Below are positions 1 to 53,434 of a DNA stretch of 64,000 nucleotides, in pieces (the stretch's first letter is position 1; each line of letters opens with the position of its first letter). Below the pieces are notes generated by a model. That model ran no database searches, was not told the origin of the DNA, and was given only the letters and a program-made list of their open reading frames with translations. The DNA is from Eximiradius sp. (GTDB lineage: Bacteria > Bacteroidota > Ignavibacteria > Kapaibacteriales > UBA2268): positions 253,001 to 317,000 of the forward strand of contig CAKZLY010000014.1 in the NCBI GenBank assembly GCA_937127445.1. Reading direction: 5' to 3'. A program made the translations under genes and the position numbers.

Positions 1-2253
1 ATTGGTATAGTTAAGTCACCAGATGGTAATGTCGTAAATGTTGCTGATGCGATACGCAAATCTTTGCCACAAATAGAAAAAACTTTGCCGAAAGGCATGA
101 AATTAGATATCGCATTGGACCGCTCTACATTTATCAAAAGTTCTGTCAGCGATGCTCTTTCTAACATTTATATGGGCGTTATTCTAACAGGATTAGTGCT
201 ACTATTCTTCCTGCACGATATTAGAACAACCTTTATCGTTGCTCTGGCGATGCCAATTTCCATTGTTTCTACTTTCTTTTTGATGCAAGTATCAGGGTTT
301 TCGTTAAATACCATGACTCTTATGGGATTGTCTGTCTCTGTTGGTGTGCTTGTTTCTAACTCAATTGTGGTAATTGAAAACATTTTCCGACACAAAGAAG
401 AACTCGGCTCGGATAACAAAGAAGCTGCCGCCAAGGGAACGGATGAAGTTGTTGTCGCTGTTCTGGCTGCTACAATGACAAACCTTGTTGTGTTCCTACC
501 GATTGCCCAAATGACTTCTATGGTTGGGCTATTCTTCCGTGAATTTGCTCTCACTGTAACATATGCAACATTGTTCTCTCTACTTGTTTCGTTTACTGTT
601 ACTCCGATGCTTGCTTCTATTTTGCTCCCAAAACAAATTAAAGTTGGAAAGATCGGTGCAGCTATAGAAAAATACTGGTCGAAAGTGGAGCAATTCTATA
701 AGCGTACTCTTGCGTGGGTCCTTAGCCGAAAACTTTATGCTTCGTTTGTTGCTTTCGGTTCATTTGGATTGCTAATTCTAAGCTTTATAGTTCTGGGCCC
801 TTCTATTGGTTTCGAAAACTTCCCTCGTATTGATGATTCACAAATTAGAATTGATGTGGAATTGCCCGATGGATATAATATTGATGAAACATCTATTGTT
901 ATGGCAGAAATTGAACGCCGTATTAGCCAATACCCAGACGTTACTAAAATCATTACAAGCTTAGGCAAACAAACCGAACTGGATAAGAACACAAACCTTG
1001 CATCGATGGATGTAACTGTAACCGATGCAAACAAACGCGAAACTACTCTTCAAGAATACATAACTGAATTTACAAACTTGCTTTCTGATATCCCAAACGC
1101 AAAAATTAAAGTTGACTTTGCTGAAAATGTCGGTGGTCCCGGCGCTCCAATCGAATTCTACTTAATGGGAAATGATGCATTGGTGCTCGAACGATTAAAA
1201 ACAAAAGTTATTAATGAAATATCAGATGTTCCCGGGCTTATTAATTTCGATAATTCATCTCGTTCTGGCAAACCGGAAATTACAATTTATCCATATCGTG
1301 AAAAAATAGAAGAAGCTGGTATTACTGTTATGGATGTTGCGATGACTCTTCGCGCTTCGATGGAAGGTCTCGTTGCTACAACATATAGGGAAAAAGGCGA
1401 AGAATACGATATTAAAGTAAAACTTTTCGACGATGCTTACAACACACCAGAGAAAGTCGGTAATATTCCGATTGCAACACCAAACGGTCCATACCGCTTG
1501 TCGCAATTAGGTGAAGTTCGCTTTACTAAAGGTTTTGCAAAGATTTTGCACAGAGATAAACTCACAACCATTAAATTTACCGGTTCTCCCGCAGCTGGTG
1601 TCCCATTAGGTCAGGTTACCGACGAAATTGAAAAGCGTCTCGCTAAAATTGAGATGCCTGCCGGATACTATTACAAATGGGGTGGTAGTGCCGAGATGAT
1701 GAATGAAACTGTTGCAGAAATGTTGCGCGCGTTTTTAATTGCAATTGTGCTTACTTATATGTTGCTTGCTGCACTGCTCGAAGATTTAGTCCAACCGCTT
1801 ATCATTATGAGCACTTTGCCTTTATCATTTATTGGTGTGCTGGGCATCCTGTTTATTACTGGTGCAACTATGAATACAATTTCTATGATGGCAATAATAA
1901 TGCTTGTGGGGATTGTGGTCAACAACGCAATTCTCATTCTTGATTACTCTAACCAATTAGTTCGCAAAGGAATGAGCCATAGAGACGCTCTAATTGAGGC
2001 TGCTCCAACAAAACTAAAACCGCAAATTATGGCTTCTGCTGCTATTATTTTGGGTATGCTTCCGATGGCTTTGGGTATCGGGGATTTCGGCAAAGAATTG
2101 CGTATGCCACTCGGTATTGTTTCCTTAGGTGGATTGCTCGTCTCGACTGTTCTTACAATTTATGTTATTCCTTCTGCCGATTATTTAAATAACGCATTTG
2201 GTAAAGCAGTATTCGGCAAAATTAAACGAATTTTCAAAAGGAAAACAGCATAA
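1..2253 (+). CDS. Efflux RND transporter permease subunit (AcrB/MexB-like), 5' truncated by window edge
   Basis: Frame is open from base 1; the listed TTG start at 64 is internal. Multi-TM RND layout with conserved segments (VGVLVSNSIVVIENIFRHKEE, MLVGIVVNNAILILDYSNQLVRKGMSHRDALIEAAPTKLKPQIMASAAIILGMLPMALG). Confidence 0.95.
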   Translation: MGIVKSPDGNVVNVADAIRKSLPQIEKTLPKGMKLDIALDRSTFIKSSVSDALSNIYMGVILTGLVLLFFLHDIRTTFIVALAMPISIVSTFFLMQVSGFSLNTMTLMGLSVSVGVLVSNSIVVIENIFRHKEELGSDNKEAAAKGTDEVVVAVLAATMTNLVVFLPIAQMTSMVGLFFREFALTVTYATLFSLLVSFTVTPMLASILLPKQIKVGKIGAAIEKYWSKVEQFYKRTLAWVLSRKLYASFVAFGSFGLLILSFIVLGPSIGFENFPRIDDSQIRIDVELPDGYNIDETSIVMAEIERRISQYPDVTKIITSLGKQTELDKNTNLASMDVTVTDANKRETTLQEYITEFTNLLSDIPNAKIKVDFAENVGGPGAPIEFYLMGNDALVLERLKTKVINEISDVPGLINFDNSSRSGKPEITIYPYREKIEEAGITVMDVAMTLRASMEGLVATTYREKGEEYDIKVKLFDDAYNTPEKVGNIPIATPNGPYRLSQLGEVRFTKGFAKILHRDKLTTIKFTGSPAAGVPLGQVTDEIEKRLAKIEMPAGYYYKWGGSAEMMNETVAEMLRAFLIAIVLTYMLLAALLEDLVQPLIIMSTLPLSFIGVLGILFITGATMNTISMMAIIMLVGIVVNNAILILDYSNQLVRKGMSHRDALIEAAPTKLKPQIMASAAIILGMLPMALGIGDFGKELRMPLGIVSLGGLLVSTVLTIYVIPSADYLNNAFGKAVFGKIKRIFKRKTA

Positions 2254-2272
2254 AATCAGATAAAAAATAATT

Positions 2273-2308
2273 AATCAGGCTGCCTTTTCGTCAAAGTGCA
2301 GCCTGATT
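2273..2308. terminator. Bidirectional intrinsic terminator hairpin
   Basis: AATCAGGCTGC(2273-2283)/GCAGCCTGATT(2298-2308) perfect 11-bp stem followed by T-rich sequence, between convergent genes. Confidence 0.85.
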
Positions 2309-2334
2309 TTATTAGATAGCGAAAAAATGTAAGT

Positions 2335-2997
2335 TTATACATTCGCGATTTTATTTTTTATTGCATAGCGAACCAAACTCGCTGTATTCGAGCATTGAAG
2401 CTTTTGCATTAAATTATAACGATGCGATTCCACAGTACGAACGCTTAAAAACAGTATTTCAGCTATTTCTGCATTAGTTTTTCCTTCGGCAATAAGATTT
2501 AGCACTTCCTGCTCCCTTTTGGTAATAGATATTGGTTTGGCATTCTCCTGTGATTTGCGCAGATTATGTTGCATCATATTCAATATTGATTTGCTGAACA
2601 CTCTTTCGCCTAAAACAACTTTTTTTATCGCATCTATTAAATCAGCTGATGCTATATCTTTTGATAGATAACCATCGGCACCTGCATCAATTGCCTGCTC
2701 GATATGTAATGCGTCCTCAAACGCTGTAAGCATAACAACCATTGTACCGGGCGACATCTTTTTTATCAAAGGCAATGCTTCGATGCCTGTCATTACCGGC
2801 ATAAGTATGTCAAGCAGCAACACATGTGGCTTATGGTAGCTTACAAGCTCAACCGCTTCCTCGCCATTGTGTGCTTCATCAATTATCTTAAAAGATTTTT
2901 CAATGTTCAGCAAACGCTTAAGCCCTGCACGCACTATTTCGTGATCGTCCGCTATTACTATCAATAATGGATTATTTATATCGAAAAAATCAATCAT
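2335..2997 (-). CDS. NarL/LuxR-family response regulator (REC + HTH)
   Basis: N-terminal REC (IADDHEIVRAGLKRLL, LLLDILMP, K at SKDIA) and C-terminal LuxR HTH (KREQEVLNLIAEGKTNAEIAEILFLSVRTVESHRYNLMQKL). Confidence 0.95.
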   Translation of the reverse strand: MIDFFDINNPLLIVIADDHEIVRAGLKRLLNIEKSFKIIDEAHNGEEAVELVSYHKPHVLLLDILMPVMTGIEALPLIKKMSPGTMVVMLTAFEDALHIEQAIDAGADGYLSKDIASADLIDAIKKVVLGERVFSKSILNMMQHNLRKSQENAKPISITKREQEVLNLIAEGKTNAEIAEILFLSVRTVESHRYNLMQKLQCSNTASLVRYAIKNKIANV

Positions 2998-4940
2998 ATT
3001 TCGGACCTATCTATTTCTGATATCCATATTTCCATAACTGCATCACTCGGCATCCTCCAATCCCCTCGAGGCGATAGAGCAACTGTTCCAACTTTTACTC
3101 CATCGGGTATGCACGAACGCTTATATTGATTTACGAAAAATCGTGTAATGAATTTTTTCATACTTTCTTTTATTTCGTGATTTTTAAATTTATCACCAAA
3201 CGCTACTTTCGCCATCATCATAATCTTTGTCGGCGAATAACCAAATCGGGCAAAATAGTAAAGGAAGAAATCGTGTAGCAAATATGGACCAATTATTTTT
3301 TCCGTCTGCTGAACAAGCTCGTCCTCGCTTACAGGCAAAAGTTCCGGTGAAATCGGTGTCTTCATAATGCTACCGAGGATTAGCGACGCTTCTCCTTCGA
3401 ACATATTGTCCTTTGCCCAGTCAATCAAATACATTACAAGTGTTTTCGGAACACCCGAATTTACATTATACATTGACATATGGTCGCCGTTGTATGTGCT
3501 CCATCCCAATGCTGCTTCCGATAAATCGCCCGTTCCAACAACAATACCATTCAACTTATTTGCTAAATCCATCAATATCAATGTTCTTACCCGTGCTTGT
3601 GCGTTCTCGAATACAATATCAACCTGATTCTCATTGTGCGAAATATCTTCAAAATGCGACCTAACTGTGTTTGTTATGTCAATTTCACGAAAACTAACTC
3701 CAAGCGCCTCAGATAACTTTTGTGCATTTATCTTTGTTCGGCTCGATGTCCCAAAGCAAGGCATAGAAACCGCCAAAATACCTTTTTTGTTTAAGCTGAG
3801 TCTTTCAAAAGTTTTAGCACAAACAATCAAAGCAAGAGTTGAATCAAGTCCACCAGAAACACCCAGAACAACATTCTGAATCCCAATATGTTTCAAGCGT
3901 TTTGATAATGCTGTGATTTGTATGTTCAGGATTTCCTCGCATACTTCTTTTTTCTGCTGATACGAACGGGGAACAAACGGTAGCTTAGGAATATGGCGCA
4001 AAAGTTTAGTTGTCGATACTGTTCCAAACTGAAAACTAATTGTTTTAAATTGCTTTTGAGTACGTCCCGTAGCAAAAGAACTATTCTTCAAGCGTTCGGA
4101 ATTAAGTTTTTCAATATCAACATCAGAGATGATCATTTGCGTGTTGAACGAAAACCTGCGACTTTCTTCCAGAACTCTGCCATTTTCTGCTATAATGCAA
4201 TGCCCAGACATAATAAAATCAGTCGAGCTTTCCCCCGGCCCAGCCGAAGAATAAAGATAAGCAGCATGGCAGCGTGCCGATTGCGATACTACCAGATTTC
4301 TTCTGTATTCTGCTTTGCCTAAATACTCGCTGCTCGCGGATAAATTAAGCAGTACATTTGCTCCACCAAGCGCTAAATCAGAACTTGGTGGCACTACGGA
4401 CCACAAATCTTCGCATATTTCTATTCCTATTCGAAGCAATGGAAAATCCCTTGCTTCGAATATTAAATCCGCACCAAATGGAATTTCGTTGCCATTTAAC
4501 TCTAATGTGTTGCAGTGTCTATCCTCATCACCCGAGAACCATCGCTCTTCGTAATATTCGTCGTAATTCGGAATAAATGTTTTAGGAACAACTCCCAAAA
4601 TTTGACCATTTGAAATGAAAACGGCACAATTAAACATTTTCCCAAGCGAACGCAAAGGTGCTCCTATCACAATTGTAACTGCTTGCTGCTGAGTAAATTT
4701 CTGCAATTCCAGCAACCCTTGCTCTACTGCACGATTTAAATTATCTTGAAAGAACAAATCGCCACAAGAATAGCCCGTTATCGACATTTCAGGGAACAGA
4801 TAAAAATTGCACTTGTTTTCGAGCCCCGTTTCTACTACTTCCTTGATTTTTTCTACATTGAATGGCACATCGGCAATTCTCACCTCAGGCGAGACAACCG
4901 CAAAGCGTGCTATATTATATTTGTTCAAATTTATCAGCAT
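2994..4940 (-). CDS. nadE: Glutamine-dependent NAD+ synthase (nitrilase-type amidase + NAD synthase domains)
   Basis: N-terminal nitrilase fold (FPEMSITGYSCGDLFF, IGIEICEDLW) and C-terminal SGGLDSTLAL P-loop pyrophosphatase motif; GTGDLSEAALGWSTYNGDHMSMYNVN. Overlaps the response regulator by 4 bp. Confidence 0.95.
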   Translation of the reverse strand: MLINLNKYNIARFAVVSPEVRIADVPFNVEKIKEVVETGLENKCNFYLFPEMSITGYSCGDLFFQDNLNRAVEQGLLELQKFTQQQAVTIVIGAPLRSLGKMFNCAVFISNGQILGVVPKTFIPNYDEYYEERWFSGDEDRHCNTLELNGNEIPFGADLIFEARDFPLLRIGIEICEDLWSVVPPSSDLALGGANVLLNLSASSEYLGKAEYRRNLVVSQSARCHAAYLYSSAGPGESSTDFIMSGHCIIAENGRVLEESRRFSFNTQMIISDVDIEKLNSERLKNSSFATGRTQKQFKTISFQFGTVSTTKLLRHIPKLPFVPRSYQQKKEVCEEILNIQITALSKRLKHIGIQNVVLGVSGGLDSTLALIVCAKTFERLSLNKKGILAVSMPCFGTSSRTKINAQKLSEALGVSFREIDITNTVRSHFEDISHNENQVDIVFENAQARVRTLILMDLANKLNGIVVGTGDLSEAALGWSTYNGDHMSMYNVNSGVPKTLVMYLIDWAKDNMFEGEASLILGSIMKTPISPELLPVSEDELVQQTEKIIGPYLLHDFFLYYFARFGYSPTKIMMMAKVAFGDKFKNHEIKESMKKFITRFFVNQYKRSCIPDGVKVGTVALSPRGDWRMPSDAVMEIWISEIDRSEI

Positions 4941-4987
4941 ATTTTCCCCTTCATTTATCGATTATTACGGCAAAATTTATACCAAAT

Positions 4988-5797
4988 CTATTTTTTCAAA
5001 ACATACATACATTCAAGCGACAGGAAGTCTCCAAAAAACGGGATTTTCCCAATTGCTCCAATTTTTAGTGACGGCAGTCCGAACTTTTTTTGGAATACTG
5101 GACGCAATAAATAATAATCCTCTTTTGCAATTGTTAAGCCCGCCGAATAAACACATTCTTTGAATTTTTTTGAGGAAAGCCTAATTTCCCGCAATCTAAG
5201 CGTTTCCTCTTGGTCAATTTGCCTACCAGAACTTATCATTTTTTTGAAGATAAAATCAGGAAATAAATGAATATAAGGCAATTTTGTTATAAAATTGCCA
5301 GCAAGCGTGTGTTGATGACCACCATAGGGCGAGCGATACGGCGGAAATGTAACGTAGAGAAATCCACCTTCACGCAATAATTCTCGAATTCTTACAATTG
5401 CAAGCTCGGTTTCTGATAAATGCTCTATTACATCTCGCAATATTACTATATCGAAGTAATTTTGCCATTTTGAAGGTATTTCATCATAAAGAATATTATG
5501 GGAAGTAAATTCCACATTCAGTTGCGCAGCAGCGGACACTTTTCGTCCGCTTTCCAATCTATTTTTAGCTATATCAGTGCCTAACCCATATTCAGCGCCG
5601 GCTCTAACAAATGAATGAAGCACACCACCCTCGGCAGAACCTATTTCAGCAATTTTCTTGCCCTTTATTTCGCAGATGTTTTTCTGAAAATATGGCACAA
5701 TTATATCCCTGCCTAATTCATATTGATAACGCCAATAATAAAAATCTGCCTTCCCAAGACCGCTTCGTTCCGCTTGTGTGATAATTTCATCTACCAT
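4988..5797 (-). CDS. Class I SAM-dependent methyltransferase
   Basis: IAEIGSAEGGVLHSFVRAGAEYGLGTDIAKNRLE and FDIVILRDVIEHLSE motifs. Confidence 0.85.
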   Translation of the reverse strand: MVDEIITQAERSGLGKADFYYWRYQYELGRDIIVPYFQKNICEIKGKKIAEIGSAEGGVLHSFVRAGAEYGLGTDIAKNRLESGRKVSAAAQLNVEFTSHNILYDEIPSKWQNYFDIVILRDVIEHLSETELAIVRIRELLREGGFLYVTFPPYRSPYGGHQHTLAGNFITKLPYIHLFPDFIFKKMISSGRQIDQEETLRLREIRLSSKKFKECVYSAGLTIAKEDYYLLRPVFQKKFGLPSLKIGAIGKIPFFGDFLSLECMYVLKK

Positions 5798-5878
5798 TAT
5801 TTTTAATCGGATATTTTTAATAAATTAGTTAAATTTAAATATCAAAAAACGAAATTTCTAATAAATAATTGCTTTTAT

Positions 5879-7042
5879 ATGAAAATAGCATATCTTTCGA
5901 CATTCTATCCTTTTCGTGGTGGTATTGCTCAGTTCAATGCTGCACTTTTCCGTGCATTTGAAAAATTTGCTGAAGTCAAAGCCTATACGTTTTCGAGGCA
6001 GTACCCATCGCTTCTATTCCCCGGACAAACGCAATTTGTGTCTCCTACCGATAAAGTCGATAAACTTATTGCTGAACGAATACTCGACACAATTAATCCG
6101 ATGAGCTATCTACGCTCAGCTCAAAAAATACGCCGCTACGACCCAGATTTACTGCTTACAAAATATTGGATGCCGTTTTTTGCTCCCTCGCTTGCCACTG
6201 TTTGCAAGTATTTGCCCGAAAAAATTACTAGAATTTCTATTCTGGATAACGTCAAGCCACACGAAAAACGCCCCGGCGATATTAAATTGACTAACTTTTT
6301 TCTCAAACATAACGATGCTTTTGTCGTTATGAGCGATACTGTGAAAAACGACCTATTAGAATTCAAGCCAGACGCAAAATATATCGAACATATTCACCCG
6401 CTTTACAACCATTTCGGTGAAAAAATCCCGAAAAAAATTGCTCAAGACAAACTCTTCTTGCCTTTCGATAAAAAAATATTGCTTTTCTTTGGCTTTATTC
6501 GTGATTATAAAGGTCTCGATTTGCTTATCGAAGCATTGAAATATTTACCCGAAGATTATTATTTACTAATTGCTGGCGAACCCTACGGCAACTTCGATAA
6601 ATACGACAGACTTATCAAACAGCACGGAGTTGAAAACAAAATCACAAAACACGTTCGCTACATCTCTGATAGTGAAGTCCCGCTTTGCTTCTCGGCTGCT
6701 GACGTGTGCGTCCTTCCGTATCGCTCGGCTACACAGAGCGGAATTGTTGCTATCGCTTACCATTTCGATTTGCCCGTAGTTGCTACGAATGTCGGGAGTT
6801 TGCGCGAAGCTGTCGAACCACACAACACCGGCTATCTTGTTGCAAAACCTGATGCTTTGCTTTTGGCTGATGCAATCAAAATTGTCTTCGAGCAAAACTT
6901 GCTCGAAAAATATCAAAAAAATATTCAGACTTATAAGTCTATTGCTTCCTGGGATAGCCTTGCCCGAAAAATTGCAGACTTGCACTACGAAATTGTTCAG
7001 CAAAAAGCCGATGCAAATAAAAATAAAATTAAGTTGATGTAG
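5879..7042 (+). CDS. Glycosyltransferase family 4-like/group 1
   Basis: GT-B motifs: ILLFFGFIRDYKGLDLLIEAL, CVLPYRSATQSGIVAIAYHFDLPVVATNVGSLREAV. Confidence 0.92.
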   Translation: MKIAYLSTFYPFRGGIAQFNAALFRAFEKFAEVKAYTFSRQYPSLLFPGQTQFVSPTDKVDKLIAERILDTINPMSYLRSAQKIRRYDPDLLLTKYWMPFFAPSLATVCKYLPEKITRISILDNVKPHEKRPGDIKLTNFFLKHNDAFVVMSDTVKNDLLEFKPDAKYIEHIHPLYNHFGEKIPKKIAQDKLFLPFDKKILLFFGFIRDYKGLDLLIEALKYLPEDYYLLIAGEPYGNFDKYDRLIKQHGVENKITKHVRYISDSEVPLCFSAADVCVLPYRSATQSGIVAIAYHFDLPVVATNVGSLREAVEPHNTGYLVAKPDALLLADAIKIVFEQNLLEKYQKNIQTYKSIASWDSLARKIADLHYEIVQQKADANKNKIKLM

Positions 7043-50637: not shown

Positions 50638-51200
50638 TTGTAGATACCTTATTGTTGGTAAAACATATTTTACATTGGCAAAACTATTCTGGTTGTTTAA
50701 AGTAATAATTAACGATTAATTTTTTTTTGAATAAATTTGTTTTTTTAATACAAGTCCTTATCTTTTTATTACTTACTGCTGGTTTAGTCTTGATTAAAAT
50801 GAATTTGATGTGAAAATGATTAAAATACTTTAATATTTAGTTAACTTTTATTTTAGTTTTTGAGCGATTTAAAATTATTGCTTGAATTATTTATTGAGTT
50901 TTAGTAAATTCTTCCGGTAGTTTTTAGTTCTCTTTATTCATTTTTTCTTCATTTGATATAATTCAAAATGCGAAAGTATTGTGAAAAATATAACAAATCT
51001 ATCTCTGTGGTTAATTGCCTGATAATTAACGGCTTATTGCGTTGTATGGGGGGGGACGCCTTCATTTGTCTTGTTATGGCTTATAAACTCTTGCAAATAC
51101 TTACGACCGCCTCCAAAATAAATGAGCATCACAAATTACTCTTGTGTCTTAAATGTTGTTGCATTATTCAATTATTATTAATATTAAATTGGGTGAAAAA

Positions 51201-51566
51201 ATGAAAAAAACAATTGTTATATTTAGTTTTCTTCTTTTGTCAACGTCTATTCTTTTTTCTGATATCCCGCGATTTATTCCCGAAGGCGTGAGTTGACGTA
51301 TTGATGTTTGTCCTAAAGATTTTCAATGCTATGGAAGCTGGCGAGAAATATCAAGGCACAATGATGAAGATAATAACCCTAAATGGGGACAAGGACAATG
51401 TCAGCCAAGCGTACTACACGAATGCCACTGCTGGGATTGGATTACCTGGTGGTTTGGTATAGCCGATATTCCTTCACCACCTCAAGATTGGGAGTCAATT
51501 TATGGAAGATATGATGATTTCCCTAATTCTTATAATCCAGAAACAGGTCAATATGAAAGAGAATAA
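51201..51566 (+). pseudogene. Small secreted Cys-rich protein ORF interrupted by an in-frame TGA (codon 32)
   Basis: Manual translation: MKKTIVIFSFLLLSTSILFSDIPRFIPEGVS[TGA]RIDVCPKDFQCYGSWREISRHNDEDNNPKWGQGQCQPSVLHECHCWDWITWWFGIADIPSPPQDWESIYGRYDDFPNSYNPETGQYERE*. Signal-peptide-like start; both parts in one frame; TGA at 51294-51296. Confidence 0.6.
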
Positions 51567-51574
51567 TCAATTTG

Positions 51575-51601
51575 GGGTAGGTTCTACACCTACCCTGTTT
51601 T
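51575..51601 (+). terminator. Intrinsic terminator-like hairpin
   Basis: GGGTAGGT(51575-51582)/ACCTACCC(51588-51595), 5-nt loop, followed by TGTTTTATT; lies between the small ORF and the TlpA-like gene. Confidence 0.75.
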
Positions 51602-51622
51602 ATTAACAATAAAAGGTGAACT

Positions 51623-53434
51623 ATGAGAAAGATATTGTTTTTATTCTTAACACTAATTGTTTATAGTTGCTCGCAAAATGTAACCAACGATAATTTTAAT
51701 TATGGGAATATGCTTTTCATTAAAAATGGTAAAAAATTGCTACAAGGCAATGAATATGAATTTTTCTGGAATACAAGCGGACTTAATTCGAAATTATATT
51801 ATACAACAATAGTATTTGTTTTTGAGAAAGACGGTTATTCGAGAAAAGAAATAATAAAACTTGAAAAATTAGACAGTATTTTCTATCGAGGTGTGATTAG
51901 AATACCTGAATCGTCATCGTCAGTGTACTTTTGTCTTTCTACGCCATTAGCTGATTTGTCGTGTCCTTATGCTATTACTTTACCAATTTATAAAGATGAA
52001 AATACGCCTGAATTTGGAGCAAATTCAACATTACTATATAATTCCGATACTCAAAATTATTTAAAATATTTCTACAATGAAAGAAACCTTTATCCCGATA
52101 ATTATTCCATTTTTTTAGTTCGATGGCTGTATGAAATGGAAAATAAGATATTTGTAACAGATTCAGTTAGAAAACATCTTGAAGAATTAAAAAAAGAAAA
52201 AGAATCTTCCGATATTCAATTGCTAAAATTGGTTGGAAATTCAATGCTTATGGACTACTCAGAACACAGTAAAATACTTGAATACCTGGCACAAAATCTG
52301 AAATGTTCTAATATACTAAATAATCAATATGTTTCTGGTGTTATCAAGCATTTGTTAATTAATAATTATAAAAAAGACACGATTAATATGAAAAAGATAA
52401 TAGAGAATATTGTAAAATACTCCCCAAATTCTATGTTTTGCGAAGGAATGATTGATGGAGATCCAAAAGATTTCAAAATTTTATCACCTTCAAAAATTAT
52501 ATGGCTAATTAACAAAAATTTAGAAAAACAGCAAACATATGATTTGTTGATGTCAAAGCTCCAAGTTCTTTCATTTAAATTTTTACCTGATTCGTTAGAA
52601 GCGGCTGAACTTTTAGCTGATAAACTTTATAGAGACTATATTAACTATTTTGTTGATGATGATAATTATTATAAAATTAAAGATTATTATCATATTCTTT
52701 ACTCTTCAATAGGATTGCTACCAGATGTTTTCAAAAAAATTGCTTTAGTCACAAAAGATTATGATAAATATCTTGGGTATATGAAAGATATTTCAGAGAA
52801 AATTAATACTAATCTATCATCAAAAGCTATATACTACCTTGATATTGGAAATGTTTATGATAGTTTGTCCATATTAGATTCTGCTTCAAAATATTATTAT
52901 TATTCGCATTCGTTACTACCAGTTCGTTCGCTTGGTTATGAGAAATTAAATAAACTAACGAAAAAAATGAAATATAGTGATGTTGATAAATTAATTGCAG
53001 ATATTAGCAAAAAATATGGTTTTCCTTTCACCAAAATTGGAGATAATTTTCCATTGATTGAATACGCTGATGGAACAAAAGAAAATCTCGTTAATACCAA
53101 ATTCCCCAAAATAGTGTTTTTCTATAATACTACTTGTGGCCCTTGCGAAAGAGCTTTCAAAGATTTAACAAAAGTGAAATCATTGCTTGAGAATAAAAAA
53201 ATTAAATTATTTTTCATTTCACCAGAAAATACTGATAAATTAAAAAAATGGTGGATATATGATTCTTTTGGTGTTAAAGTAATTAAAAATGCTTCTCAAA
53301 TAAAATCAGCCTTTGCCTCTGATGATTCTGTCCCTCAAATTTTACTTCTCAATTCTGACGATTATATCGTAAATTGGATAAATGGATATTCTCCTGATGG
53401 AATGAATTGGGAGGAAATTTTAGGGAAATTATAG
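51623..53434 (+). CDS. TlpA-like thioredoxin-fold lipoprotein with long N-terminal region
   Basis: Lipobox FLTLIVYSC; C-terminal FPKIVFFYNTTCGPCERAFKDL ... SVPQILLLNSDDYIVNWINGYSPDG. Confidence 0.8.
   Translation: MRKILFLFLTLIVYSCSQNVTNDNFNYGNMLFIKNGKKLLQGNEYEFFWNTSGLNSKLYYTTIVFVFEKDGYSRKEIIKLEKLDSIFYRGVIRIPESSSSVYFCLSTPLADLSCPYAITLPIYKDENTPEFGANSTLLYNSDTQNYLKYFYNERNLYPDNYSIFLVRWLYEMENKIFVTDSVRKHLEELKKEKESSDIQLLKLVGNSMLMDYSEHSKILEYLAQNLKCSNILNNQYVSGVIKHLLINNYKKDTINMKKIIENIVKYSPNSMFCEGMIDGDPKDFKILSPSKIIWLINKNLEKQQTYDLLMSKLQVLSFKFLPDSLEAAELLADKLYRDYINYFVDDDNYYKIKDYYHILYSSIGLLPDVFKKIALVTKDYDKYLGYMKDISEKINTNLSSKAIYYLDIGNVYDSLSILDSASKYYYYSHSLLPVRSLGYEKLNKLTKKMKYSDVDKLIADISKKYGFPFTKIGDNFPLIEYADGTKENLVNTKFPKIVFFYNTTCGPCERAFKDLTKVKSLLENKKIKLFFISPENTDKLKKWWIYDSFGVKVIKNASQIKSAFASDDSVPQILLLNSDDYIVNWINGYSPDGMNWEEILGKL

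Follow-up and report, generated by a model that had tools for sequence, protein, structure and literature searches.

The in-frame TGA that splits a gene for a small secreted protein in the window (the whole 64,000-nucleotide stretch of DNA analysed here) is probably a recent single-base nonsense allele in which a Trp codon has become a stop, the base being read from the assembly (Table 1). The gene is real and forms the upstream member of a two-gene module not previously described, in which a small secreted protein and a thioredoxin-like lipoprotein of ∼600 aa are encoded with a hairpin between them. Its product is one of a hitherto undescribed family of small proteins that bacteria secrete.

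Table 1. The interrupted gene, its parts and the adjoining features, with positions in the window
Feature	Position	Strand	Remarks and basis
Small secreted protein gene	51201..51566	+	121 codons and TAA, broken at codon 32; translation, orthologues, dN/dS
N-terminal signal peptide MKKTIVIFSFLLLSTSILFS	51201..51260	+	Kept in orthologues; called by sequence pattern, no predictor
In-frame TGA	51294..51296	+	Next base C (TGA-C); Trp column in four closest relatives
89-aa Trp-rich segment with 5 Cys	51297..51563	+	Omega 0.29 (bootstrap 0.14-0.59); purifying selection
Intergenic hairpin, then weak T tract; terminator- or attenuator-like	51573..51597	+	Fold against shuffles; comparison with relatives
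Partner gene; 603-aa lipoprotein-like product with C-terminal thioredoxin/AhpC-TSA-like domain (CGPC motif); intact	51623..53434	+	Pfam; lipobox by inspection

The interrupted gene and its family

A hidden gene for a secreted Cys-rich protein, split by a single TGA at codon 32, had been proposed by the sequence-only reading and was confirmed by translation, which gives MKKTIVIFSFLLLSTSILFSDIPRFIPEGVS*RIDVCPKD...ETGQYERE* (asterisks mark stops), with one internal TGA in a frame that otherwise runs unbroken to the TAA. Translation likewise bore out the description of the segment beyond the TGA as 89 Trp-rich residues with five Cys, ending in TAA, and the view that the frame on both sides of the stop is one gene agrees with two same-genus genomes, which encode a stop-free protein of 123 aa. 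By sequence pattern, the signal peptide of the small protein lacks a lipobox. AlphaFold2 applied to the small protein (three sequences) gave a pLDDT of 42. Upstream of the gene, an eight-G run lies inside a short hairpin at 51046-51065, a place filled by a string of N in the G002 assembly.

When the post-TGA segment was used as query against 60 relatives, intact orthologues were found in two congeneric species (72% identity over 89 aa, E 4e-47), represented by the MAGs Ignavibacteria bacterium SKW44 and Bacteroidetes bacterium UR.bin29, between which the gene does not differ in sequence. Orthologues lacking the upstream part, which the sequence-only reading had named as evidence that would count against a single gene, were not what was seen, since these proteins bear the same signal peptide. 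Among 123 genomes of the order, a profile search picked up family members in 11, and samples of the class and phylum yielded no additional family-bearing genome beyond it.

The residue that orthologues carry at the column of the TGA had been put forward as a check, with Cys, Trp, Arg and TGA itself as the possible outcomes. It is Trp in the four closest relatives, namely the two same-genus species and two further species (G002, G003, G094 and G095 together), and the codon is TGG in all four; because relatives carry Trp (TGG) at this column, the stop arose by a single-base substitution in a Trp codon. Among remoter members the column holds Trp in G067, Tyr in G045, G089 and G020, Lys in paralogues and Gly in G093. 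Cys occurs there in no family member aligned, so that the earlier suggestion of a sixth Cys, based on TGA being one base from a Cys codon, does not hold, and no relative has TGA at the same column.

Invariance across the family is limited to a Cys pair (C69/C77 as numbered in the G003 orthologue), three Trp and a handful of further positions, and the motifs CH-DW-TWW and YNPxTGxY recur. None of the Pfam and NCBIfam models compared with 12 small-protein members gave a match near its curated cut-off. In Bacteroides, exported small proteins of the NVEALA type are encoded near TlpA-like lipoproteins, an arrangement that resembles the present one in pairing a small exported Cys-containing protein with a thioredoxin-like lipoprotein gene. 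The lack of any model match near cut-off among the 12 members is a difference from NVEALA-type proteins, and the motifs CH-DW-TWW and YNPxTGxY mark the family as separate from them.

Constraint beyond the stop

The post-stop segment has a dN/dS of 0.29 against the sister species (bootstrap 0.14-0.59); the downstream gene gives 0.21, and the values for other neighbouring genes lie at 0.02-0.07. With G094 as outgroup, six amino-acid changes beyond the stop could be assigned to the window branch and seven to the sister branch, which are small numbers, and there is no acceleration on the window branch after the stop. In simulations of neutral decay, the 89 codons stayed free of stops in ∼0.5% of runs when decay extended over about half of dS and in ∼30% of runs when it extended over 0.05 substitutions per site. 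Purifying selection without acceleration therefore means that the stop is recent, that it is an assembly error, or that the product is still made; given omega and the unaccelerated branch, the gene is at most a very young pseudogene, and the pattern of an old one was not found.

A recent nonsense mutation had been among the options first offered, and it is supported by Trp in the orthologues, by standard decoding and by the constraint downstream. On this reading the stop would be real in the organism and would abolish function. Translation would mostly stop once 31 residues had been joined, the signal peptide plus a stub of 11, and the mature domain, which contains the conserved Cys pair and the CH-DW-TWW motif, would consequently go unmade or be made in traces only. 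The gene resembles known nonsense-allele pseudogenes in having a premature stop, created by a single-base change, in a conserved accessory gene that is undamaged elsewhere and whose orthologues have a sense codon, and in that related copies of the module bear independent lesions (see below). It differs from them in that the TGA allele is very young or known from the assembly alone, with no second lesion and with constraint intact. The strong preservation beyond the stop would also fit an assembly error or continued expression through readthrough.

Other readings of the TGA

The reading ranked next after a recent nonsense mutation, although itself improbable, is that of a one-base error in the consensus, or of a variant from a minority strain, in an assembly of metagenome type, with the gene intact in the living population. 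An otherwise undamaged frame under normal constraint, with no branch acceleration, is the picture that such an error is expected to leave, and the sister species are low-coverage MAGs, so that the present genome may be a MAG too. However, the window lies within a 328-kb contig of an assembly of 2.45 Mb that is 99.2% complete in 35 contigs, no homopolymer is found at the TGA site, and the other 45 orthologous genes checked in the window are all free of internal breaks, from which the error rate looks low. Seeming further breaks in the window were rejected: some were short overlapping frames that disappeared once the set was reduced to the longest non-overlapping ORFs, and the remainder came from an untranslated extension upstream and from a displaced stop at a C-terminus.

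It is less probable still that the allele is functional through leakiness, the normal tRNA-Trp(CCA) reading UGA-C and inserting the ancestral Trp, so that a reduced-expression allele would remain under selection. As proposed, UGA-C would be tolerated because ordinary tRNA-Trp misreads UGA, and this doubtful route would supply low, possibly condition-dependent amounts of normal protein without dedicated recoding machinery. TGA is the leakiest stop in E. coli and is replaced there mainly by Trp (PMC11126739), and reported TGA readthrough reaches ∼12% in E. coli, as against 0.04-0.08% in Pseudomonas and 0.04% in Pseudomonas aeruginosa (PMC9481147). Since misreading restores the exact ancestral residue, the allele may not be null, and constraint does persist after the stop, although a young mutation predicts this persistence equally. 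Against leakiness, the TGA is shared by no relative, no conserved stimulatory structure lies downstream of the stop, and the single tRNA-Trp of the genome has an unchanged CCA anticodon and an anticodon stem of five pairs (top pair G-U), and is identical across four genus members, including sister species in which the gene is intact. The same anticodon, five-pair stem and identity with the sister species rule out a suppressor tRNA-Trp or a tRNA-Trp with a 4-bp stem, the latter being a described mechanism (PMC13092985). Reinitiation past the TGA was likewise rejected, as no in-frame ATG, GTG or TTG follows shortly downstream.

A dedicated recoding mechanism has left no sign in the sequence. Incorporation of selenocysteine, suggested by the sequence-only reading, is highly improbable. 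What speaks for it is a lone in-frame UGA in a small, exported, Cys-rich protein adjoining a thioredoxin-like gene, a setting shared with bacterial selenoproteins, together with the mini-stem that was pointed out downstream. In bacterial selenoproteins, however, the UGA is served by a bSECIS and by SelA/SelB/SelC, whereas here the column is one of Trp, Tyr, Lys or Gly, SelA has no match in the nearly complete genome (E. coli and M. jannaschii controls were positive) and no tRNA-Sec match in the genome exceeds the gathering score, the eight best sub-threshold matches being ordinary Ser, Leu, Trp, Cys and Tyr tRNAs. Nor did the mini-stem stand up as a SECIS-like element, as the 52-nt stretch beginning at the UGA folds no more stably than shuffled sequences do (z +0.23), this fold is absent from the orthologue, and an Rfam search of the region gave no match. 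That UGA has been reassigned to Trp throughout the genome can be given scarcely any weight either: the TGA does occupy a Trp column, but in the 46 orthologous genes of the window compared (18,750 aa) TGG fills 151 of 152 conserved Trp columns, codon 32 being the one TGA. Moreover, RF2 is present in the genome, TGA terminates four of the 37 long ORFs in the window, and no UCA anticodon occurs among the 38 tRNA genes read (of 44 tRNA model matches in the genome).

The two-gene module and the decay of its copies

As a stop codon the TGA is ordinary, whether it reflects a young nonsense allele or an erroneous base, and its main use is to show that genes can be missed in ORF tracks; should the allele be both real and leaky, it would offer a natural test of whether misreading of UGA by tRNA-Trp can sustain a gene. 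Of greater interest is the module, which is conserved, unnamed and repeatedly decaying, and which merits a family description. Among the genomes searched it is restricted to one order, and a search of the literature for a module of a small protein and a thioredoxin-like lipoprotein found nothing. At the f1-family loci inspected, the gene downstream of the small one encodes a protein that carries a CxxC motif and ends in a thioredoxin-like domain; intact partners are ∼600 aa long with a lipobox-like N-terminus, and family f2 has a similar downstream gene. Thioredoxin-fold Pfam matches of the window partner fall just under the curated cut-offs (PF00578: E 1.7e-5, 25.2 bits, cut-off 26), which the homologues in G095 and G093 pass. 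The small gene and the thioredoxin-like lipoprotein gene are probably carried on one transcript. The small protein, putatively exported, may be handled by the redox site of its partner, and could be a substrate or ligand of that protein outside the cytoplasm.

The hairpin noticed 3′ of the TAA of the small gene proved to be real (-14.5 kcal/mol, z -3.3). Its position is kept, with differing sequence, in G094, G089, G020 and G093, and it is near-identical in G003; a hairpin that keeps its position while changing its sequence is possibly an attenuator or an mRNA-processing element. Over loci L017, L038, L041, L043 and L044 and the window, z values range from -2.1 to -4.9. From ∼51536 to 51645, a stretch that takes in the end of the small gene, the hairpin and the start of the partner gene, the DNA is near-identical to that of G003, with gene-wide synonymous divergence at ∼0.6; either RNA constraint or recent exchange would account for this. 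Further upstream in the G003 assembly (L017, ∼6043), the gene for a Por_Secre_tail protein is split near query residue 42, probably by an assembly frameshift in a low-coverage MAG.

Lesions are found in several other copies of the module. In G045 (L019, C1:596000-608000; 4031-6221, on one contig), a TAG replaces an invariant Trp codon of the small gene and a TAA interrupts the partner gene, both frames being otherwise open. The corresponding partner in G003 (C37) is broken by a 13-bp tandem duplication and a TAG, and the partner in a second copy of the module in the source genome itself (G000, C20) is disrupted by several stops and one or more frameshifts. We argue that copies of the module decay repeatedly and independently, and, because stops and lesion types differ between copies, that this reflects the loss of a dispensable module rather than recoding. 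The locus of this second copy (L020, C20:1-10000) holds in tandem, at 96-4782, genes for a 170-aa Cys-containing small protein, a 570-aa CGPC protein, a 122-aa family member and the broken thioredoxin-like partner.
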